Shown here: positions 4,456 through 28,262 of the stretch, one piece after another
Numbering within the stretch: the first letter of the stretch is position 1
Layout of the letters: each line of letters opens with the position of its first letter
Assembly: GCF_026586675.1 (NCBI RefSeq)
Contig: NZ_JAODIX010000006.1
Span: 1-48,952 of the forward strand
DNA from: Halorubrum yunnanense
GTDB taxonomy: Archaea; Halobacteriota; Halobacteria; Halobacteriales; Haloferacaceae
DNA length: 48,952 bases
Direction: 5' to 3'
The notes under the pieces: model-generated
Told to the model about the DNA's origin: nothing
What the model saw: only the letters and a program-made list of their open reading frames with translations
Databases searched by the model: none
Position numbers and translations under genes: made by a program

Positions 4456-4488
4456 ACGCTCTTAGAAACACGTGCACCAAGTGCACGG
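4456..4488. repeat. 33-bp direct repeat with GTGCAC palindrome, copy 2 (operator-like, upstream of RHH gene)
   Basis: The palindrome at 4471-4487 has arms CGTGCAC and GTGCACG with a three-base spacer. On the minus strand it covers the region about 24-40 bases before the RHH start codon, where box A and BRE elements normally lie. Binding here should affect transcription of the RHH gene. Confidence 0.65.
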
Positions 4489-4618
4489 TAAGCTTATCGG
4501 CTTATCGCAATTCAGATCAAAATATTATCATAATAAATCTCAGCCGCTACTTGCACAGCAAAGTAATCGTGCTGCTGTCTTACGATTCCTTAACTAAAGA
4601 CGAATGGTACCGAAGCGC

Positions 4619-5207
4619 GCCGTGTCGGATAGCGACTTCTTTCTGATCGAACGGGTGGTCGTCGGTCTCGCCTCCGCGCTGGACAGTGTCCCTGTACTCA
4701 CACAGTCGGGGCTTTTTTGATCTGATCTTGTTCTTCTTATCAGCCGTATCTATACCCCTCTAACCGGCCCCCGTACGCGGGTTTGTCGTGATATCCCCTA
4801 TCTCTTGATGGACTTCATCTAACTGGGGATCTAACTCTCTGACTAGTCGATTATCTTTCGAGAGTAGATCGGAAAGTGGTCAATAAGCCCGCTACACTGC
4901 TGTGAGCATGGGTAGTAGCCAACCTCATGTGTCTCCTTCAGAGAGATTTCTGCTTGTTCTCCCCGTAAACCTCTGGGTTGATGGCTTCGTCACAACCCGG
5001 TCCGGTGAGTGGGATTGTTATCTCGTATTCAATCGGCCACAGATAGTGTGAAGCACCCCATCATTGAGATTTAGCCTACTATCTGCATATCCGTGGATAT
5101 CCCGTATTTTGAGATCGGTCCAGCCGATCTGTTTGTATCCCTCGCTAGGAGTGAGAGGGCGAAAGAGAGGGGAAGCAAAGCCTCCCGTTCGTCCGCTCAG
5201 TGCAATT
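4619..5207. other. Gene-poor AT-rich stretch
   Basis: No supported gene is visible on either strand. A run of six T at 4713-4718 could act as a T-rich archaeal terminator for plus-strand transcription. Short open frames here lack the acidic composition and strong third-position GC bias of the neighbouring genes. Confidence 0.45.
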
Positions 5208-5375
5208 ATGAGTTGGAACACCCAGCAAGTCACGCCTCAAATCGACAGCGAGCCCTCTGTATCGTTTCGCTTGTCGATTCCGGGCGTGCCATGGACACCT
5301 GAATCGACATCAACCAACGCGACCGGTACCGTGTGGAGCTCAGATCTGAACGGCTCACTATCTCGATCACGATGA
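5208..5375 (+). CDS. Possible 55-residue leader or remnant protein overlapping the HNH gene
   Basis: The frame starts MSWNTQQVTPQIDSE at the ATG 5208 and stops at 5373-5375. Its TGA overlaps the HNH start in an ATGA arrangement, which is typical of translational coupling. The sequence is rich in Ser and Thr with no domain I recognise. It may be a real small gene, a truncated remnant of a longer gene, or chance. Confidence 0.35.
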   Translation: MSWNTQQVTPQIDSEPSVSFRLSIPGVPWTPESTSTNATGTVWSSDLNGSLSRSR

Positions 5376-6043
5376 CAGACGAATTCCGACAAGCAGTGTA
5401 TGATGCATGGGGTCGTGAGTGCTTGATCTGCGGGCGGTCGCCGGAAGGTTGGCTCCAAGCGGCTGTCGGCGGTGGGCACCAGGACAAACTCTCGTTACAC
5501 CACCTCAACGGCGACGATACAGACGATCGAGTCGCGAACGCCATCCCGCTGTGTCAGAGTTGTCATGTCCACATCCACCGGGTAGACGAGCCGCCGTACC
5601 GGCAGTGGCACCGCCAGCTCCCAATCGCGGATCGGCATGCGTGGAACGCCCACCGGGAAGAATACGCCGAGACACCACAGCTAACGGCAAAAGAAGCTTC
5701 GTGGCGGTACGGAGACGACGACGGCACCCCGCGGAGTACGTCGTATCTCCGGTACGAACGAGACGTCACTGACTCCGATGACGGGTTCAATACGGAGGCA
5801 ATCTGGAGTGACGGCGGCCACCGTGAACAGCCAGCAGATATCCAGGAAGCCACCATCGAGTACACACTCGAAGACTCCGGACGCTACCGAATACGGTTCG
5901 TTGAACGTCACGACGGCCCCGGGTGGTGGCGTGTCGTCGATAAATGGACCGACAGTGTCTGGCACCCCGTCGACCGTAAACCGATCGCTGATGTCGACGT
6001 CATCCTCGAGTACGGCGCTAACGATGGCAAGCGATCGAACTGA
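5372..6043 (+). CDS. HNH endonuclease domain protein
   Basis: The protein has 223 residues from ATG 5372. A start at 5333 is possible but would add 13 residues before MTDEFRQAVYD. The N-terminal half carries a zinc-finger-type HNH core: CLIC near residues 18-21, then LSLHHLNGDD about 25 residues later, then NAIPLCQSCHVHIH. The paired cysteines bind Zn and the His/Asn residues form the beta-beta-alpha-metal active site that nicks or cuts DNA. The C-terminal half is a beta-rich region without a known motif. The gene is isolated, with an AbrB-like gene converging from the right. HNH proteins of this kind occur in haloviruses, plasmids and defence islands; the target here is unknown. Confidence 0.85.
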   Translation: MTDEFRQAVYDAWGRECLICGRSPEGWLQAAVGGGHQDKLSLHHLNGDDTDDRVANAIPLCQSCHVHIHRVDEPPYRQWHRQLPIADRHAWNAHREEYAETPQLTAKEASWRYGDDDGTPRSTSYLRYERDVTDSDDGFNTEAIWSDGGHREQPADIQEATIEYTLEDSGRYRIRFVERHDGPGWWRVVDKWTDSVWHPVDRKPIADVDVILEYGANDGKRSN

Positions 6044-6058
6044 ACAGTAGGATAGTCA

Positions 6059-6328
6059 TCAGTTGGTCTCCGAGAAGACGGGATCGTCCTCGTGACCTGC
6101 GAGGTCATGGGTTTCAGACCCACCGCCCTCCATCGAGACTGGATCGAAGTCGTCGAACGCGCCGTACCGCTGCTTGACGATTTCCACAGAGAGGTTCCCT
6201 TTTTCATCAGCGTTCCACCGGAGTTTGTCGCCCGGCTCGATGTCGAGCCGTCGACGGAGGTCCGCTGGGATCGTGACCATCCCTCGATCGCTGACCTTGG
6301 TTTCTGTGGGAGTTTCTTCAGTTGCCAT
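6059..6328 (-). CDS. AbrB/SpoVT-type transition-state regulator
   Basis: The protein has 89 residues from the ATG at 6328. The longer frame upstream has atypical composition and overlaps the decayed nucleotidyltransferase, so it is not used. Residues 10-45 contain the swapped-hairpin AbrB signature: TKVSDRGMVTIPADLRRRL followed by IEPGDKLRW. The C-terminal half is acidic and low in complexity. Such proteins bind DNA as dimers and act either as stand-alone regulators or as antitoxins. No PIN or other toxin gene follows in the same direction, so a regulator role is more likely. A TATA-like sequence lies about 30 bases before the start codon on the minus strand. Confidence 0.85.
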   Translation of the reverse strand: MATEETPTETKVSDRGMVTIPADLRRRLDIEPGDKLRWNADEKGNLSVEIVKQRYGAFDDFDPVSMEGGGSETHDLAGHEDDPVFSETN

Positions 6329-6405
6329 ACTCAGCGGTATACGTTCACGCACAATACATATTGCGCCGCATGTGGATGTTTGGAGAACGGTCAGACCTCG
6401 CTCCC

Positions 6406-6578
6406 ATGCAAGCAGTCGTCCTCGCCGCGAGCAAGAGTACGCGCCTCCAGCCCTCACGGAAGACAAGCCGAGGGTGCTCGTCGAAGGTATCGGAACGTCC
6501 CTGATAGAGGATATCTTCGAGAGCCTGATCGACTCGGAAGCCACCGAACTCATCGTCGTCGGCTACGAGGTCGAGTAG
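6406..6578 (+). pseudogene. Decayed N-terminal fragment of a sugar-1-phosphate nucleotidyltransferase
   Basis: From the ATG at 6406 one frame reads MQAVVLAASKSTRLQP, the degenerate nucleotide-binding loop of RfbA/GlmU-type enzymes (normally MQAVVLAAGxGTRLRP). After a frame change around 6450 the next frame continues ALTEDKPRVLVE, then GTSLIEDIFESLI and ATELIVVGYEVE before a stop at 6576. That order matches the usual LTxxxPKxLVxVxGKPLLEHxL...LxxxGxxEIxVVxGY of this family. The GxGTR loop has lost glycines and everything after about 57 residues is gone. It is therefore a frameshifted, truncated remnant and not a working gene. Confidence 0.75.
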
Positions 6579-6592
6579 AGTATGGAACTTAC

Positions 6593-6632
6593 AAGGCTAA
6601 AACCCCGCCTTCAGGGCGGAGAGGATGCCAAT
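6593..6632 (+). mobile_element. Minimal TTAC-anchored hairpin element (IS200/IS605 end relic)
   Basis: A target-like TTAC at 6589-6592 is followed by about 40 bases: AAGGCTAAAA, a hairpin CCCCGCC-TTCA-GGGCGG, then AGAGGATGCCAAT. The hairpin followed by GGATGYCAA is the same right-end signature seen in the larger element at 47579-48072. No transposase is present. It is most likely a solo end or an internally deleted derivative. Confidence 0.6.
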
Positions 6633-6884
6633 TCGTCTGTTTCCGTGTTAGTAACCGAGAGTCGGAGCATGTCGGGCAGACACCCCTCATTTCGTCTGTT
6701 CTCGCAGTAGAGCGATGGGCGCTCCATGGGTAGCTATCGACCACACCCCTCATTTCGTCTGTTCTGTATCACATAGTTCGGGTACTGATCCTCCCGCCGG
6801 CTGCAACGAGAAAACAGACGAAACATAGTAAACAGACGAACGTTACTTTTAAGTTAGTAAGTAGTGTTACTCAAAATATCAACG
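6632..6884. other. Replication-origin region upstream of orc1: two full ORBs, three half boxes and an AT-rich tract
   Basis: Two identical 22-bp boxes, CACCCCTCATTTCGTCTGTTCT, lie at 6681-6702 and 6744-6765. Shorter cores are present at 6632-6642 (TTCGTCTGTTT) and inverted at 6813-6822 and 6831-6840 (AACAGACGAA). Between the boxes and the orc1 start lies the most AT-rich part (6840-6884), a suitable unwinding site. The same 22-bp box recurs inverted beyond the gene. Archaeal Orc1/Cdc6 proteins bind such origin recognition boxes, which in haloarchaea include a G-rich stretch (here GAGGGGTG on the minus strand). A TTTTAAG box A at about 6845-6851 probably drives orc1. Confidence 0.8.
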
Positions 6885-8081
6885 ATGTCTAAAGATCTCT
6901 TTGCGGAGATGACTGAGACGCTCTTTGAGGACAAAGCCATTCTCTCGGAGGAGTATCGTCCGGACGTTATCGTCGAACGAGACGACGAAATCGATGCGTA
7001 TCGATCGGCGCTCAAAGACGTACTTTTCGGCCGGAATCCCGCGAACGTGTTTATTTATGGAAAAACTGGTGTCGGAAAGACGGCCGTCACGGAGTACATG
7101 ATGAACGCTCTCCAGACGGAAGTACAACGACGGGACGAAGCCGAAGAACTCCACGTTCATTTCCGGAACTGTAACGACGACAGCGTCTACAGAACGGTTC
7201 GATCGCTCATAAATAGCATCCGTGAGGACGACGGAGAGACGTTTCCGGAAACCGGCCTCTCGACATCGCATGCCCTCGAAACGTTATACGAAGAAATGGA
7301 GACACGTGGCGGTACATTTCTGTTCATTCTTGACGAAATCGACCACCTTTCTGACCCTGATACACTACTGTACGAGCTCCCGCGCGCCCGAGCAAACGGT
7401 CATCTTGACGCTTCCCGAGTCGGCGTGATCGGGATCAGCAACAACTACACGTTCCGTTCGTCACTGAGCCCGAAAGTCAAAGACACGCTGATGGAGAAGG
7501 AACTGGCCTTTTCGCCGTACGACGCAGATGAACTCCAGTCGATTCTCACCGCTAGAGCTGAGAAGGCACTTGTTGATGGAGCATGTGAAGACTCCGCTAT
7601 TAAGCTCGCAGCCGCGAAGGCCGCGAAAGATACCGGAAGCGCACGGCAGGCGATTGACCTCCTCCGCGAGGGCGGCGATGTCGCCGAAGAACAGGGAGCG
7701 ACGGCGATCACCGACGACCATATCGAGGTAGCTGCCGCACGCGTTCAGCGAGGTCGTGTCCAAGACAAGCTGCGCGACCAGACCATGCACGGGCAGCTCA
7801 TCTTAGAGTCGCTCGCACGGATCGAAGTGAATGGGGATGTTCCTGCACGGTCAAAAGAAATTCAGGCGGCGTACGAACGCGTCGCACGAAACTGGGGTCA
7901 CGATCCACTAACCACGTTAAAAAGTATCCAGAACCATCTCGCGGATCTCACGATGCTCGGGTTTCTCGAACGGACCGAACAGAACGAGGGACGCGCAGGT
8001 GGTGTTCACTACCGATACGAACTCGCGTTGGATCCCGACATTATCTTGGAGACGCGCGAGTCGATCGAGAATCAGCCGTAG
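6885..8081 (+). CDS. orc1: Orc1/Cdc6 family replication initiator
   Basis: The protein has 398 residues from ATG 6885 (MSKDLFAEMTETLFEDKAIL). It is an AAA+ ATPase: Walker A GKTGVGKTAVTE near residues 60-71, Walker B FLFILDEIDHL, sensor-1 region GVIGISNN, an arginine-containing helical lid (TGSARQAIDLL), and a C-terminal winged-helix domain of about 100 residues (SLARIEVNGDVPARSKEIQ onward). It would bind the flanking ORB repeats and load the MCM helicase. Length and architecture fit intact haloarchaeal Orc proteins. Its setting in accessory DNA, with its own set of inverted boxes on both sides, suggests the origin of a plasmid or integrated element and not the main chromosomal oriC. Confidence 0.95.
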   Translation: MSKDLFAEMTETLFEDKAILSEEYRPDVIVERDDEIDAYRSALKDVLFGRNPANVFIYGKTGVGKTAVTEYMMNALQTEVQRRDEAEELHVHFRNCNDDSVYRTVRSLINSIREDDGETFPETGLSTSHALETLYEEMETRGGTFLFILDEIDHLSDPDTLLYELPRARANGHLDASRVGVIGISNNYTFRSSLSPKVKDTLMEKELAFSPYDADELQSILTARAEKALVDGACEDSAIKLAAAKAAKDTGSARQAIDLLREGGDVAEEQGATAITDDHIEVAAARVQRGRVQDKLRDQTMHGQLILESLARIEVNGDVPARSKEIQAAYERVARNWGHDPLTTLKSIQNHLADLTMLGFLERTEQNEGRAGGVHYRYELALDPDIILETRESIENQP

Positions 8082-8095
8082 CCGTTTAAAACTGA

Positions 8096-8441
8096 AGAAC
8101 AGACGAAACGAGGGGTGTGGTTCGAGTGAGACGGAGCCACCACTCACTGTAGAGACCAGAACAGACGAAATGAGGGGTGTCCGAGACCTCGAGACCGCTG
8201 TCGATCGGCGGTGGAGTGTCGTATTCTTTGAAAATAAAGTACTCTCTCACTCTTGGGTGACACGTTGTCCAAAGCCGAGAAACACTCCACCTTTGCAAGT
8301 GAAGTCAATTCTTCGGGCCCACTCGTCCCAGTTTCACCTGCGAAACTGGTGTGTGTCTAGCTTGTTCTTCCCATGCTGACCGAATTCGATCGAAGCATAT
8401 CACACGAGTTCTATACGGGAGAACAGACGAAATGAGGGGTG
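8096..8441. other. Right-hand ORB cluster downstream of orc1 (three inverted boxes)
   Basis: Copies of the same 22-bp box in inverted orientation lie at 8096-8117 (one mismatch, AAACG for AAATG), 8158-8179 and 8420-8441. Together with the two upstream copies they form an inverted array around orc1. The stretch 8180-8419 between the last two boxes holds no gene that I can support and contains an AT-rich segment (TTTGAAAATAAAGTA at about 8227). Confidence 0.8.
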
Positions 8442-8510
8442 TCCGAGAGCTACTAAAAGAATATAAAACTGCACCAAAATACTATTTTCCTCTATTTTGT
8501 ATGTACCTGC

Positions 8511-9101
8511 ATGAACGACCGACGCCCACCAGAGGAGTTTACAGATGTTAATGAGGCGGTCGGAGCGGAATGGGAGTCCGAAACGACGCCCTACGAGCGC
8601 ATTCGACACGTCATTAGACGTAGGTACAGCCCGGTGTCAGCTGATGCGGTCGCTGACGATGCACGGACCGCTCCGAAGACCGCCCGAAAACACCTGAACA
8701 CACTCGCGGACGAGGGATTCGTCGAGACGACACCCGGCGAGCACGGCAGCACGCTCTATCGTCGCTCACCCGAATCACTCGTCGTCCAACAGGCTGCCGA
8801 TATCCTTGCGCATGTCTCGACTGATGAACTGGCCACACGTATCCAGGAGATGCGCGAGCAGCTCACCGAGTATCAGGCTGAGTTCGATGTCGATTCCCCT
8901 GAGGAGTTAGCCGTCAACCAAACGAACCAGGCTCTCGCCGAGTCTGGGTCGCAACCGGACGAGGTTGATCCAGAGCGGATTCGTGAGTGGAAGACGCTCC
9001 GTCGGAATCTCGCATTCGCGAACGCTGCCCTCTCGATCGGCAACGCCGAGCAGTTCGTCGACGGTGACCGTCGTTCGACTGACGAGAACGTCCCGGCCTG
9101 A
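8511..9101 (+). CDS. Winged-helix regulator of a wHTH/TumE-like pair, copy 1
   Basis: The protein has 196 residues from ATG 8511. Residues 25-80 form a winged helix: TPYERIRHVIRRRYSPVSAD, then PKTARKHLNTLADEGFVET and a wing around PGEHGSTLYRRS. The C-terminal half is helical (SVVQQ...RIQEMREQLTEYQ). The gene ends three bases before the next one, which is on the same strand, so the two are almost certainly co-transcribed. The same gene pair recurs at 13343-14319, where the helix reads PKTARKYLRWFADLGIV. In haloarchaea proteins of this type stand next to TumE-like genes. An antitoxin role is plausible but unproven. Confidence 0.78.
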   Translation: MNDRRPPEEFTDVNEAVGAEWESETTPYERIRHVIRRRYSPVSADAVADDARTAPKTARKHLNTLADEGFVETTPGEHGSTLYRRSPESLVVQQAADILAHVSTDELATRIQEMREQLTEYQAEFDVDSPEELAVNQTNQALAESGSQPDEVDPERIREWKTLRRNLAFANAALSIGNAEQFVDGDRRSTDENVPA

Positions 9102-9104
9102 GCG

Positions 9105-9587
9105 ATGGAAGGCCCTCCAGATCAAGCGGAATCCCATACGCTTCGCGGAGCGACGGATCGGCCGGCACTCCTAACGATTCGCGACGTTGTAGAGGAAATG
9201 GAGCCGCTTGCGACAGCCGAACTCGATAACTACCTCCATCCGTCTGTCCTCGAAGTTGTGCTTGACGACGGGCTCTGTGCGGCCGAGGAGGCTCGGATTG
9301 ACATCCAGTGGACGACACGGGCTGACTACAAATTTCACTACACGGACACGGAAGGCGTGAATTTCCGGTGGGGAAAGCATCCACATGCTGGAGACTACAT
9401 CGACGTCAGTGGGCTCGAACACTATCACCCGCCGCCGACTGCGAGCTCAGATCCAGACGAGGTCGAAGAGTCCCGTATCAGACAATCTCTCGAAGCGTTG
9501 GTCACTCGCGCAGTCCTCAAACTCTGGCGGGTCGCCTACCACACGGATTCGTATGCGCCGCTCAATGCTGGCCGCAACCCACCGTGA
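9105..9587 (+). CDS. TumE-like putative toxin, copy 1
   Basis: The protein has 160 residues from ATG 9105, three bases after the winged-helix gene. The conserved part is an aromatic and His-rich core: DIQWTTRADYKFHY, then FRWGKHPHAG, then HYHPPPTAS. The parallel gene at 13885 shares the pattern W-T-x2-D-(Y/F)-K-x2-Y ... RW-x2-HP ... H-x-HPPP-x-AS. This resembles DUF6516/TumE, described as the toxin of a two-gene system with a helix-turn-helix partner. That assignment is from memory and moderate. The mechanism is unknown. The C-terminus (LKLWRVAYHTDSYAP onward) differs from the second copy and may be extended by read-through into unrelated DNA. Confidence 0.65.
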   Translation: MEGPPDQAESHTLRGATDRPALLTIRDVVEEMEPLATAELDNYLHPSVLEVVLDDGLCAAEEARIDIQWTTRADYKFHYTDTEGVNFRWGKHPHAGDYIDVSGLEHYHPPPTASSDPDEVEESRIRQSLEALVTRAVLKLWRVAYHTDSYAPLNAGRNPP

Positions 9588-9706
9588 ACTCTTTTAGGGA
9601 GCATCCGGTCGTCTGGTTCACTCAGCCTCTAGCCCCCGTTCACACCCGAAGTCGTAGTCGCAGTCACGAGCGTCAATATATGCGCTGTTGCCCGTCCGAT
9701 CGGGGA

Positions 9707-9755
9707 CTTGACATCCTCCCCGCGCTGAAGCGCGAGGCTTTCTCCTCGATTCTCG
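9707..9755 (-). mobile_element. Minimal TTAC-anchored hairpin element (IS200/IS605 derivative)
   Basis: On the minus strand a TTAC (9759-9756) is followed by CGAGAATCGAGGAGAAAGCC, a hairpin CGCG-CTTCAG-CGCG, then GGGAGGATGTCAAG. Its first half matches the left end of the element inside the integrase (47580-47598, GAGAATCGAGGAGAAAGCC). Its second half matches that element's right end (GGGGAGGATGTCAA). About 49 bases thus look like left end joined to right end with all internal sequence deleted. The rest of 9588-9799 holds no gene. Confidence 0.6.
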
Positions 9756-9799
9756 GTAACCGGTAGCACTGCCGACCCTGTTCACAGTGTCCTAAAAAA

Positions 9800-9844
9800 G
9801 AAATCGTGAATTCAGAAATCGCAATTTCAAAAATCGTGAGTTCT
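9800..9844 (+). repeat. Three imperfect tandem 15-bp repeats in front of box A
   Basis: Units at 9800-9814 (GAAATCGTGAATTCA), 9815-9829 (GAAATCGCAATTTCA) and 9830-9844 (AAAATCGTGAGTTCT) are directly adjacent. They end exactly where the box A of the ATPase gene begins (CTATTTATG, about 9843-9851, 20-28 bases before the ATG at 9871). Repeats in the BRE-proximal position are likely operators or activator sites. Confidence 0.6.
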
Positions 9845-9870
9845 ATTTATGAGGAGATGGAACCGGGTGT

Positions 9871-11250
9871 ATGGAGCACTTTGTTGATCGAGAGACTGAA
9901 TTCAATCAACTCACGGACTGTTATCAATCTGAGACAGCCGACTTCGTCGTGATCTATGGACGACGCCGTCTAGGAAAGAGCGAACTCGTTCGTCAGTCTA
10001 TTGCCGATCGGGACGACGCCGTCTACTATCAGGCTGTCGAGTCTACAGCAGAAAATCAGCTTGAACAGTTCGTGGAGACAGCGAGTGCACAGTTCCCTTC
10101 GTTGCGGAACGTCCGTCGCGACTGGGAAGCACTTTTCGAAGCACTCGGCGAGCAAGATGCCGTCGTCGTCATTGATGAATTCCCCTTCCTTATCGAAGAA
10201 GACGAGTCGCTTCCGTCCCGGCTACAACGAGCGTGGGATCTGAAATTACAGGAGACCGGGATGACGCTCGTGCTTGTCGGGTCCTCGATTAGCGTCATGG
10301 AAGACAAGGTACTGTCGGGGAGTGCACCACTGTATGGCCGGCGGACAGCAACTATCGATCTCAAACCTCTCTCAGTAGGTGACGCACGGGAGTTCTTCCC
10401 TGACTACGATGCTGAAACTGCAATTACAGCGTGGGCAATCTACGGTGGCACACCGTACTACCTCCAAACAATCGACCCTGGCCAAGAAGTCAGTCAGAAC
10501 GTCCAAGAGTCAATCCTGTCGGAGCGTGGACTCTTGTATTCTGAACCGGAATTTCTCCTCCGAACTGAACTCCGTCAGCCGAACACGTACTACAGTATTC
10601 TCCGGGCACTTGCCCATGGCCGTCGGACGCCGAACGAGATCGCGGGGATGGCTGGCGTCGAGTCAGCCTCACTCAGTACGTATCTCCAGAAACTTCGCCG
10701 CCTACGCCTCGTTGAACGCCACATCCCAGTGACCGAGTCAGCAACCGCGTCGAAGCGCGGCCGCTATCGAATCTCAGCCCCGTTGTTCAGGTTTTGGTTC
10801 CGGTTCGTCTACGGCAACCAAGATCAGCTCCGCATACTCGGCGAGAAAGCCTACGAGGAGCTTGTTGCGTCTGAGCTAGCGGATTACGTAAGCCCGCTAT
10901 TCGAACGACTCTGTCAACGAATGCTCCCCACTCTCGTCGATCGACAGTTCCGTGACGTCGGGCAATGGTGGTTTAAAGAACACGAACTGGATGTGCTCGG
11001 ACTGACAACTGATGGCCTTGTTGCTGGAGAGTGTAAGTTCACGTCAAATCCCGTTGGTGAGGGGGTATTGGCTACTCTTGAGCAGACCGCCACAGAAGTA
11101 CAATGGTCACAGGCCCCCACCGATGGGAAGCGCCTGTACGTGCTGTTCAGCCGAAGCGGATACACAGATGATCTCCGGCAAACTGCGAACACACGAACTG
11201 ATGTTCGCCTCTTCGACCTCGACGATCTTTTGATCGCTCCTCACGCCTGA
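9871..11250 (+). CDS. Archaeal ATPase with C-terminal DUF234 nuclease-like domain
   Basis: The protein has 459 residues from ATG 9871. The N-terminal P-loop ATPase has Walker A in IYGRRRLGKSELV (residues 29-41) and Walker B in VVVIDEFPFL. A following helical lid leads to a winged helix (PNEIAGMAGVESASLSTYLQ) with RLRLVERHIPV. The C-terminal third contains FRFWFRFVYGN and then a PD-(D/E)XK-type core: ELDVLGLTTDGLVAGECKF, where D and E-x-K are the metal-binding residues. This is the archaeal ATPase/DUF234 architecture found in mobile and stress-related loci; its substrate is unknown. It appears to be transcribed alone from a leaderless promoter preceded by tandem repeats. Confidence 0.9.
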   Translation: MEHFVDRETEFNQLTDCYQSETADFVVIYGRRRLGKSELVRQSIADRDDAVYYQAVESTAENQLEQFVETASAQFPSLRNVRRDWEALFEALGEQDAVVVIDEFPFLIEEDESLPSRLQRAWDLKLQETGMTLVLVGSSISVMEDKVLSGSAPLYGRRTATIDLKPLSVGDAREFFPDYDAETAITAWAIYGGTPYYLQTIDPGQEVSQNVQESILSERGLLYSEPEFLLRTELRQPNTYYSILRALAHGRRTPNEIAGMAGVESASLSTYLQKLRRLRLVERHIPVTESATASKRGRYRISAPLFRFWFRFVYGNQDQLRILGEKAYEELVASELADYVSPLFERLCQRMLPTLVDRQFRDVGQWWFKEHELDVLGLTTDGLVAGECKFTSNPVGEGVLATLEQTATEVQWSQAPTDGKRLYVLFSRSGYTDDLRQTANTRTDVRLFDLDDLLIAPHA

Positions 11251-11291
11251 GCGGGATGGCCGAATACCTCAGGGGTCCACCTCAAGGCGGT

Positions 11292-12365
11292 TCACGAGAG
11301 GTGCCGCCAGATTGTCGTCGGATCGGCATCATTCAGTTCTGCGTTCGTCTCCATCTTCCGGAGTTCTGTGACACACCGCTTGGCGACGAGTGGGTAGACA
11401 TTTGCGGGCGTGAACTCGAACTCGAGTCGCATGATCTCTCGCCAGTGTTCGGCCCAGATATCCTCAACAACGCGAGGATACAGGTCTTCCACGAGGTGAA
11501 GCCCGAACTCACGGTTCTCTTCGATGACGAGTGACCGAACCGTCTTGCGAATCCGGGCAGACGTACAGTACATCGCGACGAACTGTTCGGCGCCCATCTC
11601 CGCGTCGTCCGGATCACGACCGAACTGCTCGCGATTCAACTCCTCGAACGCGTCGCGGACCACTTTCACGCGGCGGTCCTGGCTGTCACTACGGATGACG
11701 ACACCCTCCGCACGGAGATCGTCGGCAAGCGACGAACGCGGAATGGCGTAGTTCTCCGGATCCAGCTCAGTCATCTCGTCAAGGATCGTCGCAGGAACGA
11801 ACGCTCGATCAGGCGACACACTCTCGATTCGGATCCGATCGAAGACACGCCAGGCCGCCTCTGTCGAGAGGAATCCCTCGAAGGTTTCAGCGTATGGACT
11901 TCCCGGTGGCGTCATCGAGTCGATGGCTGCGTACGGAAGGACATCGAAGCCGACGAGAGCGGGGAGGTCGCGTTCGGTGTATCCGTAGTCCAGCGTCGAG
12001 TACACCAAGTTCTCTGCGTACACGATGAGCGGCCCATCGTGTTCGTCGTGGACCCGACGGAGTGCGTTCGCGTCGATCCCATCACGGAGACACCGGACGG
12101 CTCGGTGAAGAGCCCCATCGATTTCCTCGAGATCGTCGCGATGACTCCCCATGATGGAGCGCCGCGTCCCGAAGACCAGACTTCCGTCTCCGTCGGCGGC
12201 GTCCACGACGGGATCGGGATACGACGACGCGTGACGCTCGTCATAGAGCGTGAAGCGGAACGAACTCCCGTCGAACTTCTCTAGGACGACCAAATCCTCG
12301 GCGTCGAAAAATGACTCGGGGACGACAGGATGATCGTATCGTGGAATTTTGGGATACACTTTCAT
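11292..12365 (-). CDS. RNA ligase family protein (Rnl2-like nucleotidyltransferase)
   Basis: The protein has 357 residues from ATG 12365. Motif I of covalent nucleotidyltransferases is VVLEKFDGSSFRF with the adenylated Lys at residue 30. Motif III-like VYAENLVYS and motif IV EGVVIRS follow, and motif V is RVKVVRDAF. This is the order expected for ATP-dependent RNA ligases, which seal 5'-phosphate and 3'-OH ends. The C-terminal 120 residues are helical and unassigned. It is the last gene of a three-gene minus-strand operon (12929 to 11292). Relatives in haloviruses and plasmids suggest RNA repair after nuclease damage. That role is inferred from family, not shown here. Confidence 0.85.
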   Translation of the reverse strand: MKVYPKIPRYDHPVVPESFFDAEDLVVLEKFDGSSFRFTLYDERHASSYPDPVVDAADGDGSLVFGTRRSIMGSHRDDLEEIDGALHRAVRCLRDGIDANALRRVHDEHDGPLIVYAENLVYSTLDYGYTERDLPALVGFDVLPYAAIDSMTPPGSPYAETFEGFLSTEAAWRVFDRIRIESVSPDRAFVPATILDEMTELDPENYAIPRSSLADDLRAEGVVIRSDSQDRRVKVVRDAFEELNREQFGRDPDDAEMGAEQFVAMYCTSARIRKTVRSLVIEENREFGLHLVEDLYPRVVEDIWAEHWREIMRLEFEFTPANVYPLVAKRCVTELRKMETNAELNDADPTTIWRHLS

Positions 12366-12392
12366 TGGCTACTGGCAGAGTCCTGTGAGCGG

Positions 12393-12662
12393 TCAGGTGT
12401 CGCCGTTCGGTGTCCACTCAACTCCCTCCCACGTTCGAACGGCGTCGCCGACGACCGTCCGAAACTCATCGAGAGGCAGAGTACGGACATGAGAGGGCAT
12501 CGGGCCATAGTCGTCCCACTCCGTCGCATAGCGGACGACTCTCGATCGGAGACGGCCGTCTGCCGAGTCCGGATCGTACGTTTCGAAGATGTGGTGAACG
12601 CCGAGTACGAGTACGGCTCTACGTTCGTCGTGGCGGTAGATTGTGTTCTCGGTGAGGTGCAT
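12393..12662 (-). CDS. Hypothetical protein in the RNA-ligase operon
   Basis: The protein has 89 residues from ATG 12662, beginning MHLTENTIYRHDERRAVLVL. It has an alternating beta-strand character at the start (RAVLVLGVHHIFETY) and a helical middle (LPLDEFRTVVGDAVRTW). It lies 15 bases after the upstream gene and 27 bases before the RNA ligase, all on the minus strand. No family is recognised. It may be a partner or regulator of the ligase, but only position supports this. Confidence 0.65.
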   Translation of the reverse strand: MHLTENTIYRHDERRAVLVLGVHHIFETYDPDSADGRLRSRVVRYATEWDDYGPMPSHVRTLPLDEFRTVVGDAVRTWEGVEWTPNGDT

Positions 12663-12677
12663 GTGCGTTTGATGTGA

Positions 12678-12929
12678 TCATTCGAGTTCCACATCCGGCC
12701 GATCGATACCATCTTCGAGATCGGCGAGATCGCGTTCAAGTCGATCGATATGCGTTTCGAGGTCGTCGACGCTCATCAGGGCGAGACGAAGGAACGCCTC
12801 GTCTCGGTCTGGCATCAACGGGAGGCGACTCTCCGATGATGGCAGGTCGCCCGATTGTCGTGTACGCTTACGGACGAGTTCTTCGCGAGCGCTTCGCAGT
12901 TCTCGACGGAGGAGTTCGTCGTCGTTCAT
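12678..12929 (-). CDS. Small helical coiled-coil-like protein, first gene of the RNA-ligase operon
   Basis: The protein has 83 residues from ATG 12929 (MNDDELLRRELRSAREELV). The longer frame to 12995 adds an arginine-rich stretch unlike the rest and is not used. It is almost entirely charged helices, with heptad-like leucines in LALMSVDDLETHIDRLERD, so a coiled coil or helical hairpin is likely. It opens the three-gene operon with the 89-residue gene and the RNA ligase. Function is unknown. Confidence 0.62.
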   Translation of the reverse strand: MNDDELLRRELRSAREELVRKRTRQSGDLPSSESRLPLMPDRDEAFLRLALMSVDDLETHIDRLERDLADLEDGIDRPDVELE

Positions 12930-13342
12930 GGGTAGACACACACCGGAGTACAGCCCGCTACGGCCCCGGAAGGGCGGTCGCACGGACCGTCTCACCGAGT
13001 GTGTGGCTTTCCGACCAGCGCTCGGAAGTTCATGTTAGCTAGCACCGAGAGCCACGGTAAATGCTTTCTGTGGTTCACACCGCATGTGTCATCCAATTCG
13101 ATTCCCAATCAGCCATCCAACATGTCACAGTAAGAGTATAACTTCCAGACATGTCGAATGGCTCGGACTCCCGCAATAGGGTGGAATCCACCGTCAACGA
13201 CAGCTATGGAACGACGATCGCGGTAGAGGTTCATCATGCGCTCGATAGCGTGCTTGAGCCGAGAGATACAGTTCGATGGGTCACTAATCGGGAAACTATT
13301 CTGTGAAGAAAGAATTATATCTGTCGTCTTGCAAGAACACGT
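12930..13342. other. Intergenic region with the promoter of the second wHTH/TumE-like pair
   Basis: No intact gene is visible. On the minus strand 13127-13290 gives a smooth reading (LKHAIERMMNLYRDRRSI, then HPIAGVRAIRHVW) that may be a coding remnant, but no family is recognised. A box A AATTATAT lies at 13313-13320, 23-30 bases before the ATG at 13343, which fits a leaderless promoter for the pair. Confidence 0.5.
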
Positions 13343-13876
13343 ATGTCCGACATAGCGTCCACGGACGGTCCCCCCGCTTTCGATGATCCGTTTAGCGGGG
13401 ACGACGTCGAACAGCGTATCTACGGAACTATCCTCCAGATCCGGGACCCAACAACGGCAAGCGCTATCGCCGAGCAGGTAGAGTGTGACCCCAAAACTGC
13501 CCGAAAATACCTCCGCTGGTTCGCGGATCTCGGCATCGTCACACGCCATAACGGTCATCCGACCACCTATGAACGCAACGACGCGTACTTCCAGTGGCGA
13601 CGCATCAACCAGCTCGCCGCAGACCACTCCGTCGAAGAACTACAGGCGCACGTCCGCGAGTTGACGACACGAATTTCGGACTACGAGGACGCGTACGACG
13701 CCGCAACACCGGCTGCGGTTGACGCCGTGGCCATGGCTGAGGCGAGTGACGAACGGACGATCGACGCCGTGTACAGTGACTTCGCCGACTGGGCAACCGC
13801 ACGGGAAGCACGTGGGCGCTACGAACGTGCTCGCCAACAACGTGCCAGTGCCGACGGCGAACAAGCCTCCGGGTAG
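13343..13876 (+). CDS. Winged-helix regulator of a wHTH/TumE-like pair, copy 2
   Basis: The protein has 177 residues from ATG 13343. The winged helix covers about residues 22-75: DVEQRIYGTILQIRDPTTAS, then PKTARKYLRWFADLGIVTR and a wing HNGHPTTYERND. The rest is helical (EELQAHVRELTTRISDYEDAY). It shares the PKTARK-(H/Y)-L ... AD-x-G-(F/I)-V signature with the gene at 8511 but is clearly diverged elsewhere. It is followed eight bases later by the TumE-like partner. It is expected to bind its own promoter and, if this is a toxin-antitoxin pair, to counter the partner. Confidence 0.78.
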   Translation: MSDIASTDGPPAFDDPFSGDDVEQRIYGTILQIRDPTTASAIAEQVECDPKTARKYLRWFADLGIVTRHNGHPTTYERNDAYFQWRRINQLAADHSVEELQAHVRELTTRISDYEDAYDAATPAAVDAVAMAEASDERTIDAVYSDFADWATAREARGRYERARQQRASADGEQASG

Positions 13877-13884
13877 CTCGCTCG

Positions 13885-14319
13885 ATGGTACCGCCAACAG
13901 GCGATGGGGGGAGCCCTGCCCCCATCGATCGCCCGATCCTTGAGTTCCTCCAGACGCGTCTCCGGGCGACAGAACAAGTCGAACAGGCGACTATCACGAA
14001 CGGCAGTGGCCACCTCGAACTGCAGGTCTCACTCGCACTGCGATACTATCCAGCGACCGTCAGCGAGGCGATTTTGACTGTTCGCTGGTACACGAATGAC
14101 GACTTCAAAATTCAGTATCGTGAAATACATCCTGAGAACGCCTGGGAGTGCCGGTGGGACCGTCACCCGAATTCCCACAACACACGAACTCACTTCCATC
14201 CCCCGCCCGATGCTTCGACGCCCGGAAACGATGCCTCCTGGCCGACCGACTATCGCGACGTGATCTCGCTTGTCCTCGATGAGATTGAAGAACGGATCGC
14301 GGCTCTCTGGAATAAATGA
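13885..14319 (+). CDS. TumE-like putative toxin, copy 2
   Basis: The protein has 144 residues. The ATG at 13885 is eight bases after the winged-helix gene. The core reads TVRWYTNDDFKIQYRE, then WECRWDRHPNSHNTR, then HFHPPPDAST, and the protein ends with a helix EIEERIAALWNK. This is closer to what I remember of haloarchaeal DUF6516/TumE proteins than copy 1 is, and appears full length. Residues conserved between both copies (R-W, H-P and H-x-HPPP) are candidates for an active or metal-binding site. An IS5-type element has inserted six bases beyond the stop codon without damaging the gene. Confidence 0.7.
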   Translation: MVPPTGDGGSPAPIDRPILEFLQTRLRATEQVEQATITNGSGHLELQVSLALRYYPATVSEAILTVRWYTNDDFKIQYREIHPENAWECRWDRHPNSHNTRTHFHPPPDASTPGNDASWPTDYRDVISLVLDEIEERIAALWNK

Positions 14320-14332
14320 TTACTGTCGAGAC

Positions 14333-15267
14333 TGCTCTGTTGAATCCGCAGAAGGCGACGGGATAGCGTCGCTCTGAAGGTGAAAGCGAAGCGGAAGAGC
14401 CGAATGTGACTAACCTACTCTTCCGCTTCGTTAAGCAAGCCGCGTCGCTGGCTCAAAAGCGCTGTGCCGCCAGTCCAACGGCGGTAAGTGATCCGACTGG
14501 CCACGGATTTCCCGGCTGGAAGCATGTGACGCTGCACTTTTTGCGGGTTCACATGGATGCGACGTACCGCGAAATCGTGGACTGGGCGAGTGAAATGGAT
14601 CGAGTTCGTGGTCTGTTACAGCTGTCGCGGACGGCATTTCCCGCACCCTCAACGCTGTACCGGTCGTTTGAGAGGGTGCCCATGTCCATATGGCGTGGCT
14701 TCCTTCGTGAGTCCGCGAACATCTGCGATCCGGGCTCGCACGGTGCCATCGATGCCACATTCTTCGACCGCGAAACGGCATCGAGACACTACCAACACCG
14801 CTCGGATCGCCACATACGCACGCTCAAAACGACGGCACTCGTCGATACGGACTCGTGTGCCATTCTCGATCTTCACTGCTCGGCACACTGGCCTCACGAC
14901 ACGCAAACCGGCCGTCGAGTCGCACTTCGTAACACCGAGAAAATCGAGAGTCTCGCCGGTGACAAAGGCTATGACGACCAATCTCTCCGGGACGACCTCC
15001 GATCAGAGGACGTCCGGCCCCTGCTGCGTCATCGGTTGTTCGCTGCGTACGATCACGCGCACAACGCACGGTTGGACAGCGGGCTATACGGCCAGCGCTG
15101 GATGGCCGAGACCGCCTTTTCGGCCATCAAGCGTCGATTCGGCCCCGCTGTCCAACCTCGCGCATGGTACCGCGAGTTCCGCGAACTCGTGTTGACCGCC
15201 GCAGTCTACAACCTCGAACAAGCACTCAAACAGTGACCCCGACGCCGTCATCGGATTCAACAAAGCA
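14333..15267 (+). mobile_element. Intact IS5-family insertion sequence with 8-bp target duplication
   Basis: The element is 935 bp. The ends are TGCTCTGTTGAATCCG (14333-14348) and CGGATTCAACAAAGCA (15252-15267), a 16-bp inverted repeat with one mismatch. The 8-bp sequence GTCGAGAC flanks it directly on both sides (14325-14332 and 15268-15275). It contains one full-length DDE transposase. The perfect duplication and intact gene point to a fairly recent insertion. Confidence 0.92.
14406..15236 (+). CDS. IS5-family DDE transposase
   Basis: The protein has 276 residues from GTG 14406. An N-terminal helix-turn-helix-like region (MDATYREIVDWASEMD) precedes an RNase-H-like catalytic domain: first Asp in HGAIDATFFDRE, second Asp in LAGDKGYDDQSL, and Glu in MAETAFSAIKRRFGP followed by the Y/R/E pattern of IS5 transposases. 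It catalyses cut-and-paste movement of the surrounding element. All catalytic residues are present and there is no frameshift, so it may be active. Confidence 0.93.
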   Translation: MTNLLFRFVKQAASLAQKRCAASPTAVSDPTGHGFPGWKHVTLHFLRVHMDATYREIVDWASEMDRVRGLLQLSRTAFPAPSTLYRSFERVPMSIWRGFLRESANICDPGSHGAIDATFFDRETASRHYQHRSDRHIRTLKTTALVDTDSCAILDLHCSAHWPHDTQTGRRVALRNTEKIESLAGDKGYDDQSLRDDLRSEDVRPLLRHRLFAAYDHAHNARLDSGLYGQRWMAETAFSAIKRRFGPAVQPRAWYREFRELVLTAAVYNLEQALKQ

Positions 15268-15406
15268 GTCGAGACTAACGCCAGTGTAGTGCAGAGAAAA
15301 CAGCCAGTCGCCGAAGAGGACGTAACAAAGACGACACTGACCGTGGTGGCTGCTGCCGATCCAAGCGCAGATTTTTCGGAGTACCGACGAAAGGCTTCGT
15401 CCATCC

Positions 15407-16231
15407 ATGGACGTGACAGAGGACGGGGTCCAAGACATCTGCACGAACGCGGTCTTCGAGCGCGGCGAGAGCTACCTCTCCGAGAACCGTATCCGCGAGA
15501 TCCACCGCGTCGACAGCATCGTAAGCGCTGTCGTGAGCGGCAGTCGCCAGTACGACGTTCACGTCGACCTCGCGGCCGACGGGTTCGACCCGTGGTGCGA
15601 TTGTCCGTACGACGGACCGGGAGCGTGCAAGCACGTCGTCGCCGTGCTGCTTCAGTGTCTCGACGAGGTCCCGGCGGACGAAGGCGACCGGCTCGACGCC
15701 GCACTCAACGCCGCCGACGCGGACGATCTACGAGCGTTCCTGCGCGACACGCTGGCGACCGACGCCGCCCTCCGCGAGCAGTTTTTCGCCCGGTTCGGCG
15801 AATCCTCGACGCGCTCTGTCGACGAGCTACGCGCCGCCATCGACCGGCGGTTCGAGGAGACGAACCCGGAGTACTACGTCGTCTTCGAGCCGATCGACTT
15901 TTCGGAGTGGTTCGACCTCGCGACCGAGTACCGCGAGCAGGGTCGGAACGCGTCGGCCGCCGCGGTCTACCGGGCACTCGCCGAGTCGCTCGACGACAAC
16001 ATGGAGCGCGTCGACGGCGCGTACGACAACTTCTCACAGGCGTTCACGCGAGCGCTCGACGGATACGTTGACTGCGCCGCGGCCGCAGACCATCAGGCCG
16101 ACGGAGCCACAGACGCTGTCGACTTCCTTGAAGAACGGGTGGAGTCGGGAACGCCGTATCTCGCCGGCCAGTTCGAGCGGGCAGCGTCCGAACTGCAAGA
16201 GGAACTGACAACAGGATCGGATGGTGAGTGA
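15407..16231 (+). CDS. SWIM zinc-finger domain protein
   Basis: The protein has 274 residues from ATG 15407. Residues about 60-75 contain the SWIM signature C-x-C-x(7)-C-x-H (CDCPYDGPGACKHVV), a zinc-binding module linked to DNA or protein contacts. The C-terminal part is acidic and helical, with tetratricopeptide-like character (WFDLATEYREQGRNASAAA). It starts about 130 bases after the insertion sequence and is followed by the VapB-like gene. SWIM proteins of this length are common in haloarchaea. No enzymatic domain is visible, so the role is unknown. Confidence 0.85.
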   Translation: MDVTEDGVQDICTNAVFERGESYLSENRIREIHRVDSIVSAVVSGSRQYDVHVDLAADGFDPWCDCPYDGPGACKHVVAVLLQCLDEVPADEGDRLDAALNAADADDLRAFLRDTLATDAALREQFFARFGESSTRSVDELRAAIDRRFEETNPEYYVVFEPIDFSEWFDLATEYREQGRNASAAAVYRALAESLDDNMERVDGAYDNFSQAFTRALDGYVDCAAAADHQADGATDAVDFLEERVESGTPYLAGQFERAASELQEELTTGSDGE

Positions 16232-24742: not shown

Positions 24743-27484
24743 CTACCAAGTCAGTCCTTCGTACGTCAGCCCGTCGCGCCGCTCGATGATCCGCCGGCCG
24801 TCGATCACGACGGGCTCGGCCATGGCGTCGAACGCGTCGTCGAGCGCCGCGAACTCGTCCCAGTCGGTGACGACGAGCGCGGCGCTCGCCCCGTCGAGCG
24901 CGGCGGCCGCGGACTCGGCGTACGCGACGTCGGCGAAGCGCTCGTGCATGTTGTCGGTCGCGACGGGGTCGTACCCCACGACGTCGGCGCCGCGCGCCTG
25001 CAGCCCCTCGATGATCGGGATGGCCCGGGAGTTCCGGACGTCGTCGGTGCCGGGTTTAAAAGCGAGGCCGAGTACGGCGACGCGCTCGTCCGCGACGTCG
25101 ACGTGGGCGTCGAGGAGCTCCAGCATGCGCTCCGGCTGGCCGTCGTTCACCGCGACCGCGGCGTCGAGGAGGGCGGGCTCGTAGCCGGCCTCGCGGGCCG
25201 CGGCGCGGATGGCGTCGACATCTTTGGGGAAGCAGTTGTGCACCGCGAGCCCATCGGTCGTGACGAACGTGTGGTCATCGGCAACTTCGAGAGAGTAGAC
25301 GGGTACCGACTCGTCCGGATCGAGCGTCTCAATGTCTCGAACGCGAACCGTCGTGTGCGTCCCGCCGTCGGTGTGCCCCGTGGGGGCGACTTGCCTCGCG
25401 TAGCTGTCGAGTCGGCGGTCGATCTTCGCGGTGTCGGCGTCCAAGAACAGCTCTTTGAGCTGGTCGATCTGCTCGCTGGAACTCACTCTGAGGAAGTGCG
25501 CCGGCTTGGTGGATTTCTCGGACGTCGAGGTCTTGTAGCTGGGGATGACACCGATGCTGTGCAACAGCAGCTGCATTCCCGCGATCAGATCTTCGCTCAC
25601 TGAGCCGTAGTCGTACACGACCGCGTTCGAGTGACTCGGATACTCAATATGGCCGTCACCGCGGAACAGTCCAGACAGTACGGCTTTCCGGTGCGACTCC
25701 GGCTCTTGGTAGACGGCGTCGGGGAGCGCTGCGGTGTACGACCCCGTTCCGCAACCCAGAGACTCGAGGAACCGTGCGAAGATTCGGCTCGACACTTCAA
25801 TCTGCATCGCGGTCTCCTGCTGCCGCGTTGTGTGCCGGATCCCCAGTGACTCAAAGTACGACTCCACGTCTGAGACGTATTCCGGTTCGTCCGTCGGGTG
25901 GAAGCTCAAGGCAACGCGTCGCCGCGTCGTCGACCCGTGTCCGGACTCGTCATCGTTGACGTGTCCCTCGCTGAGATAGTAGCCGATGAACCGCCAGAAG
26001 GCTTCATCAGCGGAAACGATCGCCGGGACGTAGGTCTGGCCGCCGCCTCTCGTCGTGTACAACGACACGTCTGTTCGACTGATCTCGAGTTCGTCCTCGA
26101 ATTCGAGGAAGACGTCGAGTGAGAGGTAGTTGTTCCGAGCGAATTCGTGCACGCGGTCGTAGCTATGCCGCCGGTTGTAGCCGTCGAGTACGTTCCGCAG
26201 GTGATCTTTCCGGTCAGAGAGGTCGATGTCGGGTTTAAGATACACCTCGTCAGTCGGAAAGTCCGGATCGTCGACGACGAGATCGATCAGATCGAAGTGC
26301 CCGACCGGATCGACGGTGACCTCAGTTTGTACGGGAAGCCGATCCGTTTCTGTAAGCGATCCCGCTTCTCGAACGGCGAGGTCACCGTCTTCGACGACGA
26401 GCATCGGGTGGTCGTCAGTGACCGTCACCTCCTTGCTCATCTTGGTCTGGATGCGACGCAGTTCGCCGTCGTACTCACGGCGGGTCGCACCGAGCACTGA
26501 TTTGAACGTGCTGTTCCCGTTGTCGTCATAGCTGAGCACGGCGACGTCGTCGACGAGCGCCGCATCCTCGTCCACGTATCGGTCGAAAAACGCCTCGAAC
26601 GTCAGGAACCGCGTCCCCTCATCGTCCTTCGCCAGCACTCGCTGATCTCCGGTGAGACAACTCCCGCCCCAGCCGACCCCCGAGCGCAGGAATTTCGCCC
26701 CGATCCGGTCGTCGAGTCCGACCGCGTCCATCACCTCGTAAGCGTCGATCCCGAACTGCTTGCAGATGTTCCCCAAGTCGTTCGCCAGCGAGATCTTCGA
26801 CGCGAGGAAGGCGTTGTTGGCGTACTTGATCATCACGGCGGTTTCGGGGTCGGTGCGGATGACCGAGACGTCGCCGTCGGTCGCGGCGACGAGCGGCTCG
26901 TAGAGGATCTCCAGCCGCTCCGTCGCCCACTCGGAGTCGGTTCCGAACACGAGCTTGTCCGGGCGTTGGAAGTCGTCGACGGCCGAGCCCTCGCGGAGGA
27001 ACTCCGGGTTGGTCGCGAGCTCGACGCGATCCGCCGCGTCGCCGGCGCCCGCGCGGAGCGCCTCCCCGATCTCGCCGACGCCCGGCGGCGTGATCGTGCT
27101 CTTGACGACGACGGGGTGGCGGTCGTCGGGGGTCGCTCCCGAACCGCTCCCCCCGCCCGCCAGCGCCTCGCCGGTCATCTCGGCGGCGGCCGTGAGCGGC
27201 CCGAGGTCGATGCTCCCGTCCTCGCGGGAGGGAGTGCCGATCGCGAGGAACGTCACGTCGGCGTCGGGGACGCTGTCGTACTCGGTCGTCGCGCGGAGGC
27301 GGTCGTCGACGTGCTCGGCCAAGAGGTCGTCGAGGCCCGGTTCGTGGATCGCCGCGCGGCCGTCGTTCAGCGCGTCGACGACGTCCCGGTCGATGTCGAT
27401 CGCGGTGACGTCGTGGCCCGCGTCCGCGAGGCAGGCCGCGAGGGTCGTTCCGACGTATCCGCTGCCGACGACGGTGACTCGCAT
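24743..27484 (-). CDS. aglM: UDP-glucose 6-dehydrogenase containing an intein
   Basis: The precursor has 913 residues from ATG 27484. The frame is open further upstream, but MRVTVVGSGYVGTTLAACL is the standard family start. Extein N-part (residues 1-275): NAD loop GSGYVG, TFLAIGTPS, VVKSTITPPG and ATNPEFLREGSA. A 475-residue intein follows (276-750). Extein C-part (751-913) begins CFPKDVDA, with the catalytic cysteine as its first residue, then LGLAFKPGTDDVRNSRA. The spliced enzyme would be 438 residues, normal for the family. It oxidises UDP-glucose to UDP-glucuronate for N-glycosylation or polysaccharides. The haloarchaeal homologue in S-layer glycosylation is AglM; orthology here is probable but not proven. 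Confidence 0.93.
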   Translation of the reverse strand: MRVTVVGSGYVGTTLAACLADAGHDVTAIDIDRDVVDALNDGRAAIHEPGLDDLLAEHVDDRLRATTEYDSVPDADVTFLAIGTPSREDGSIDLGPLTAAAEMTGEALAGGGSGSGATPDDRHPVVVKSTITPPGVGEIGEALRAGAGDAADRVELATNPEFLREGSAVDDFQRPDKLVFGTDSEWATERLEILYEPLVAATDGDVSVIRTDPETAVMIKYANNAFLASKISLANDLGNICKQFGIDAYEVMDAVGLDDRIGAKFLRSGVGWGGSCLTGDQRVLAKDDEGTRFLTFEAFFDRYVDEDAALVDDVAVLSYDDNGNSTFKSVLGATRREYDGELRRIQTKMSKEVTVTDDHPMLVVEDGDLAVREAGSLTETDRLPVQTEVTVDPVGHFDLIDLVVDDPDFPTDEVYLKPDIDLSDRKDHLRNVLDGYNRRHSYDRVHEFARNNYLSLDVFLEFEDELEISRTDVSLYTTRGGGQTYVPAIVSADEAFWRFIGYYLSEGHVNDDESGHGSTTRRRVALSFHPTDEPEYVSDVESYFESLGIRHTTRQQETAMQIEVSSRIFARFLESLGCGTGSYTAALPDAVYQEPESHRKAVLSGLFRGDGHIEYPSHSNAVVYDYGSVSEDLIAGMQLLLHSIGVIPSYKTSTSEKSTKPAHFLRVSSSEQIDQLKELFLDADTAKIDRRLDSYARQVAPTGHTDGGTHTTVRVRDIETLDPDESVPVYSLEVADDHTFVTTDGLAVHNCFPKDVDAIRAAAREAGYEPALLDAAVAVNDGQPERMLELLDAHVDVADERVAVLGLAFKPGTDDVRNSRAIPIIEGLQARGADVVGYDPVATDNMHERFADVAYAESAAAALDGASAALVVTDWDEFAALDDAFDAMAEPVVIDGRRIIERRDGLTYEGLTW
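25235..26659 (-). other. Intein with LAGLIDADG homing endonuclease, inserted before the catalytic Cys
   Basis: Splicing block A is CLTGDQRVLA with Cys1 at 26659-26657. Block B is VTVTDDHPMLV (T-x2-H). LAGLIDADG motifs are FIGYYLSEGHVND and LSGLFRGDGHIEY. Block F is VPVYSLEVADDHTFV and block G is AVHN followed by extein Cys. The terminal Asn, penultimate His and +1 Cys are all present, so self-splicing should work. Both LAGLIDADG acidic residues (Glu and Asp) are kept, so the endonuclease may be active. The intein interrupts GGS/CFPKD, the most conserved point of the host enzyme. GC content is slightly lower than in the exteins, consistent with horizontal spread. Confidence 0.93.
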
Positions 27485-27605: not shown

Positions 27606-28262
27606 ATGTCGACGGGGCCATCGCGGGAGTCCGACGCGGGGCGATCCGACGTCAACGCGGGGCGATCCGACGTCAACGCGGGGCGATCCGACGCCAACGC
27701 GGGGCGATCCGACGCCAACGCGGGGCGATCCGACGCTGACGCGACCATGAGCACGCGCGGTTCGGTCGGGCGGTTCGGGTGGCTCCTGGCCCTCGGGCTC
27801 CTCGCAGTCCCGATGGCCGTCATTCCCGCCGACGGCGACGTCACGATCGTGAGTCTGTGGGGGTTCCTGAGCACGTCTGGGCCCGGTCTCGGCGCCGGCG
27901 GATACCCGGTTTGGGACTACTTCCTCGACCAGTCGCGGCCGTTCTCGGCGCTCCCGGCGTCGATCCGGGCGTGGCCGCTCGCAGTCGGCTTCCACCTCCT
28001 TGCGGCGACCAGCGCCGTCGCGGGCGCGGCGCTTGGCCGCGAGGACCGCCGCGTCACCGGCGGGCTCCTCGTGCTCGCGGCGACCGCGAGCCTGTGGGTC
28101 TCCGTCGGGCTCGCGACGCGGTTCGGGGTCGGAACCACGTCGGGGCTGCTCACCGTGCTCCCGACGGGCGCGGTCGCGACCCTCGCCGTCGCCGTCGCCG
28201 CCTACGGCCGCGACCTCCGGGCGGTGTTCGAGCGCGGCCCGGGACGTCGCCGACGCGAGTGA
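27606..28262 (+). CDS. Small multi-pass membrane protein with N-terminal heptapeptide repeats
   Basis: The protein has 218 residues from ATG 27606. A TTCTTACC box about 30 bases upstream supports this start; ATG 27747 (MSTRGSVGRFGWLLALG) is the alternative that would skip the repeats. Residues 11-45 are five copies of AGRSD(V/A)(N/D). About five hydrophobic segments follow (GWLLALGLLAVPMAVI, AVGFHLLAATSAVAGAAL, GLLVLAATASLWVSVGLAT and TGAVATLAVAVAAYG). The pattern, including VTIVSLWGFLS and PVWDYFLDQSRP, resembles the haloarchaeal TIGR04206 family of unknown function (from memory). It is divergent from the UDP-glucose dehydrogenase gene. Confidence 0.75.
   Translation: MSTGPSRESDAGRSDVNAGRSDVNAGRSDANAGRSDANAGRSDADATMSTRGSVGRFGWLLALGLLAVPMAVIPADGDVTIVSLWGFLSTSGPGLGAGGYPVWDYFLDQSRPFSALPASIRAWPLAVGFHLLAATSAVAGAALGREDRRVTGGLLVLAATASLWVSVGLATRFGVGTTSGLLTVLPTGAVATLAVAVAAYGRDLRAVFERGPGRRRRE
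27636..27740 (+). repeat. Five tandem 21-bp repeats, in frame
   Basis: Units start at 27636, 27657, 27678, 27699 and 27720, each GCGGGGCGATCCGACG followed by TCAAC, CCAAC or CTGAC. Each encodes AGRSD(V/A)(N/D). Substitutions occur only in the last codons, so the array is a young in-frame minisatellite. Copy number could vary between strains. Confidence 0.9.

Follow-up and report, generated by a model that had tools for sequence, protein, structure and literature searches.

Background

Inteins in UDP-glucose 6-dehydrogenase (UGDH) genes of haloarchaea have been catalogued as the allele 'udp' (Soucy et al. 2014; PMC4071816), which that survey records from seven Halobacteria and, beyond them, from two Bacteria and six Euryarchaeota, one of which is Methanocaldococcus jannaschii. 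The MCM-a and MCM-d inteins of Haloferax mediterranei, LAGLIDADG inteins in the same class as the one described here, have been shown to home in vivo (PMC10643990); resistance of empty mcm alleles is discussed in that work, as an amino acid change (Pro at +1) that blocks splicing and not as silent recoding. The closest solved structure, the full-size, endonuclease-containing intein PI-PkoII (PDB 2cw7; E 8e-12), is only remotely similar and occupies a host protein other than UGDH. Far nearer is the UGDH intein of Halorubrum saccharovorum DSM 1137 (L006), at the same site and 89% identical over all 475 residues, which was the only relative matched in a search of reference contigs; the nearest relatives of its extein are different intein-free species from those nearest the allele reported here.

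We analysed a 48,952-nucleotide stretch of Halorubrum yunnanense (contig NZ_JAODIX010000006.1; hereafter the window) in which a UGDH gene is interrupted by an intein. This intein is a further member of the known haloarchaeal 'udp' allele, with which it shares its host gene; we infer identity of the insertion site, since the exact residue is not printed in the accessible text of the survey. A new or unique insertion site is therefore ruled out, and the look-up of inteins at this position that had been proposed for the locus leads to an element already catalogued. The species of the window may be absent from the set of Soucy et al., whose accessible text contains no discussion of codon usage beside intein sites.

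Host gene and intein anatomy

The following features are recognized in the window, where a slash in the text below marks a splice junction or insertion point.

24743..27484, minus strand: intein-bearing UDP-glucose 6-dehydrogenase (AglM-type) gene, ATG start at 27482-27484
26660..27484, minus strand: N-extein, 275 aa, C-terminal end ...GVGWGGS
25235..26659, minus strand: intein, 475 aa, C1 to N475
26621..26659, minus strand: Block A (N1), CLTGDQRVLAKDD
26396..26434, minus strand: Block B, KEVTVTDDHPMLV (T81-x-x-H84)
25961..25990, minus strand: first LAGLIDADG motif, FIGYYLSEGH, acid E231
25649..25678, minus strand: second LAGLIDADG motif, LSGLFRGDGH, acid D335
25235..25303, minus strand: Blocks F and G, PVYSLEVADDHTFVTTDGLAVHN
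25232..25234, minus strand: +1 Cys codon (TGC), the dehydrogenase catalytic Cys
24743..25234, minus strand: C-extein, 163 aa plus stop, start CFPKDVDAIRAAAREAGYE

NCBIfam identifies the host gene as the AglM UDP-glucose 6-dehydrogenase (2e-208), with 692 bits against a curated cut-off of 670 for model NF041297. The joined extein comprises 438 aa, the 475 intein residues being inserted after residue 275 at the junctions VGWGGS/CLTGDQRV (N side) and TDGLAVHN/CFPKDVDA (C side). In the UDP-glucose dehydrogenase family, the Cys of GGSCFPKD is established as the catalytic nucleophile. This motif, including the Cys, is kept in the solved dehydrogenases 4a7p and 3gg2, which can be aligned with the joined extein over its whole length.

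The preliminary description had placed a 475-residue intein immediately before the active-site Cys, with all splicing blocks and two LAGLIDADG motifs, and these elements hold: its coordinates are right to the base on the minus strand, the junctions and extein alignment fix the insertion point, and profile matches cover both functional parts. In Pfam, Intein_splicing scores above cut-off (2e-11) and LAGLIDADG_3 matches in two stretches (9e-14); NCBIfam assigns intein_Nterm to residues 1-88 and intein_Cterm to 453-475. Cys1, the Block B TxxH and a C-terminal His-Asn followed by Cys characterize a class-1 intein, while the two LAGLIDADG motifs with both catalytic acids (E231, D335) characterize the endonuclease; C1, T81, H84, E231, D335, H474 and N475 are invariant among 17 aligned same-site inteins. 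From two sequences, AlphaFold gave an intein model with a mean pLDDT of 31, too low for use.

We consider it very probable (about 0.92) that the 'udp' site is occupied here by a class-1 LAGLIDADG intein that splices constitutively and homes as a parasite, with no need of a regulatory role. Its intact blocks predict excision by the standard route (Cys1, Asn cyclization, Cys+1), which would restore the catalytic Cys of UGDH. The endonuclease probably cuts intein-free alleles at the conserved GGS/CFPKD site, the predicted target being GGS/TGCTTCCCCAAAGAC, and repair of the cut empty allele would then copy the intein in. Insertion at a catalytic codon would suit such a parasite, because the site is fixed at the protein level and imprecise loss would kill the enzyme.

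Elsewhere in the window, a 21-bp tandem repeat (27634-27743; 5.2 copies, 96% match) lies in the interval that separates UGDH from a divergent ZIP-transporter frame and lengthens open frames of both strands. Three frames in positions 1-16000 were named by reading: 5333-6043 as HNH-type, 6864-8081 as a Cdc6/Orc1-like ATPase and 14406-15236 as transposase-like. This stretch, with a lower G+C content of 0.53-0.61 against about 0.70, is probably an integrated element.

Distribution and horizontal movement

Full-length inteins at the identical UGDH site occur in 20 haloarchaeal genomes. Carriers account for 19 of 391 genomes in the class, in seven of 86 genera, and for 11 of 52 genomes in the genus, so that the survey for empty alleles suggested earlier found many of them (41 of 52 genomes). 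The junctions GGS/C...HN/CFPKD are identical in all haloarchaeal carriers in which both were read, a set that leaves aside the one contig (G040) from which the N-junction is missing. All carrier inteins are 469-475 aa long, with neither mini-inteins nor stops among them. Five UGDH homologues (L106, L110, L161, L180, L183) lack the motif G[WYF]GG[STA]C[FLMW][PA]KD in an open frame.

The intein tree separates the Halorubrum carriers into two clades, of 475 aa and 471 aa, and both groups, which were named for the AU test only after the intein tree had been seen, are rejected as clades by the extein tree (p 1e-72 and 5e-4). On that extein tree the carriers are scattered among empty alleles, with seven changes of state. 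Within clades, intein distances are mostly less than half of extein distances (for example 0.31 versus 0.70 between G000 and G001). In most of the pairs compared, dN/dS is lowest in the LAGLIDADG region, at about 0.05, against 0.14-0.35 for most exteins. These patterns fit an endonuclease under selection together with recurrent homing, and at the level of sequence comparison the tree conflict shows horizontal movement of the intein, although exteins of glycosylation genes may themselves move horizontally and contribute part of the conflict. The ongoing homing proposed for the locus thus gains comparative backing from the same-site carriers, the discordant trees and the position of carriers among empties.

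One further pair of carriers (L068 and L069, in G249 and G315) combines near-identical UGDH exteins (distance 0.11) with very different same-site inteins (0.59), a pattern of independent invasion or replacement of the intein. A viral or plasmid vehicle was considered and rejected: IMG/VR gave only remote relatives (21-27% identity), the phages searched gave a single 25% match, and the plasmids searched gave none.

Dependence on splicing

The genome of the window (assembly 99.4% complete) contains one UDPG_MGDP_dh gene and no other full match, so the enzyme should depend on splicing. The earlier proposal that UGDH activity depends wholly on splicing therefore stands for this genome and fails as a statement about every carrier, since G011 possesses, besides its carrier copy (L012), an intein-free paralogue (L181). 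That paralogue bears the recoded patch described below, and in L012 A/T-rich codons appear only further downstream (AAT GCT ATA ATT).

The preliminary description had added that, should splicing respond to salt or redox conditions, it would switch sugar-acid synthesis and protein glycosylation. In a fuller version of this idea, condition-dependent splicing would let the intein control UDP-glucuronate production and S-layer glycosylation after translation. In its favor, the precursor must be inactive in a genome with one UGDH; inteins tend to insert near active sites (PMC3359363); and other haloarchaeal inteins splice in vitro only at high salt (Ciragan 2016 and Reitter 2016, as cited in PMC8512742). 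Against it, 41 of the 52 genomes of the genus manage without the intein, its spread fits a parasite, and the N-extein ends in GGS, with none of the nearby Cys residues of known redox traps. The haloarchaeal cytosol is, moreover, constantly salty, so that a requirement for high salt is not in itself a switch. A patchy element absent from most sister species is poorly placed as a regulator. We found no sign of such a switch in these data, for which constitutive splicing suffices, and regard it as highly improbable.

Recoding of intein-free UGDH alleles

The +1 Cys codon is TGC in 20 of 20 carriers; among the 38 intein-free alleles of the genus, 31 have TGT. Around this codon, carrier-type DNA reads GGGAGT/TGCTTCCCCAAAGACGTCGAC, and intein-free alleles are often recoded with mostly synonymous, A/T-ending codons (AGT/TGT TTT CCN AAA GAY ... 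GCA ATT). In a gene with G or C at about 0.9 of third positions overall (GC3), this produces in such alleles a sharp local collapse at the insertion site, reaching to about +36 nt. A fixed definition of the patch required that no more than five of ten codons in the site window be G/C-ending and that this window rank within the gene's three lowest positions. So defined, the patch occurs among intein-free alleles in 18 of 38 from the genus, in five of 25 from other carrier genera, in three of 64 from genera in which no carrier was found, and in none of 18 carriers. The resulting comparison, 23 of 63 empties in carrier genera against 3 of 64 elsewhere, gives a Fisher p of 6e-6, and of 0.037 when the genus of the window is removed, relatedness being ignored in both.

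On the tree, patch state changes 11 times within the genus; contrasts between UGDH carriers and empties under the fixed definition all point in one direction or show no difference, and are too few. Against equally conserved positions the UGDH dip has p 0.09, with only 10 such positions available. Codon identity is 0.77 in the patch and 0.79 elsewhere, which gives no sign of extra constraint and does not back conservation of the patch itself. The allele of the window sits inside a patch-bearing clade, and its nearest relatives all have the patch; co-conversion is thus possible for this allele. As the sole cause of the carrier/empty difference, co-conversion was rejected, for it leaves the A/T-richness of the empties unexplained.

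In four intein-free alleles without a strong patch (L047, L048, L053, L058), the TGG (Trp) codon that lies four codons ahead of the insertion point is replaced by TAT, TAC or TTT (Tyr or Phe); all carriers read there keep Trp.

Intein sites in MCM, PolB and RIR1

The same analysis was applied within the genus to three other intein-bearing genes known from the literature, with 52 genomes for MCM, 46 usable alleles for PolB and 33 for RIR1. Often-occupied sites were GDPGTGK/S, GSSAAGL/T and DELDKMD/S in MCM, VIMN/SLYG and YGD/TDS in PolB, and TNP/CGEQ in RIR1. At seven of seven such sites, UGDH included, the 12-codon GC3 minimum of intein-free alleles is deeper than anywhere else along the gene (p 0.001-0.003 for each site, the lowest value obtainable), and no dip is seen at PolB 537, RIR1 236 or RIR1 275, which have one to three carriers each (p 0.18-0.55); the division into often- and rarely-occupied sites was drawn after occupancy had been seen. 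The dips in MCM, PolB and RIR1 hold against equally conserved positions, which, with the dipless rarely-occupied sites, rules out a general property of conserved motifs. GC3 depression at invaded intein sites in the genus is accordingly well supported, and our search of the open-access literature found no earlier report of it.

Its candidate causes are escape, a repair footprint and conversion by foreign tracts. On the first reading, intein-free alleles survive through silent changes that make the target unfit for the endonuclease and leave GGSCFPKD intact. The confinement of dips to often-occupied sites in four genes (seven of seven, against none of three rarely occupied) and the distribution of the UGDH patch agree with this, as do switches between Ser or Arg codon boxes (AGT, AGR), which near the sites greatly exceed background in empties and are largely missing from carriers: at MCM GDPGTGK/S, AGT makes up 50% of Ser codons in empties, compared with 2.4% over the remainder of the gene, and carriers have no AGT there. 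Several observations weigh against it. Carriers match empties in A/T-richness at MCM 367, PolB 624 and RIR1 468; phylogenetically independent carrier/empty contrasts, when pooled, divide 16 to 8 (p 0.15); the patch, at about +36 nt, exceeds a typical endonuclease footprint on that side; and the window's own intein-bearing allele falls within a patch-bearing clade. The MCM endonucleases of Hfx. mediterranei, furthermore, cut Hfx. volcanii sites despite several synonymous changes (PMC10643990). We hold this reading tentatively, at somewhat under even odds.

The depression may instead be a footprint of repeated cutting and repair, either error-prone or by short-tract conversion from A/T-richer DNA, in which selection for resistance plays no part. 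The restriction of dips to often-occupied sites speaks for such a process, as do the dips that carriers show at several sites, and an identical patch, with its Ala to Ser (TCT) change, recurs in distant families as if a short tract had been transferred. The patch is, however, wholly absent from UGDH carriers, and mutation bias alone does not predict changes of TCN to AGT or CGN to AGR. We judge a repair footprint a possible explanation, at slightly lower odds than escape.

Significance

The intein of the window adds one more copy to a mobile element already on record, and is useful as a clean example of an insertion that targets a catalytic codon. The recoded empty sites are the new part, and outweigh the intein itself in importance. 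It is conceivable, though we would not yet favor it over its negation, that Halorubrum genes under homing pressure keep intein-free alleles by synonymous recoding of the target, visible as a local GC3 collapse and Ser/Arg codon-box switches at every often-invaded site tested. If they are escape alleles, the recoded sites would be a natural counterpart of gene-drive resistance alleles, and would provide a natural, multi-gene record of resistance to homing drives where the protein sequence is fixed; if they are footprints of repair, the recoded patches would mark sites that have been repeatedly cut.
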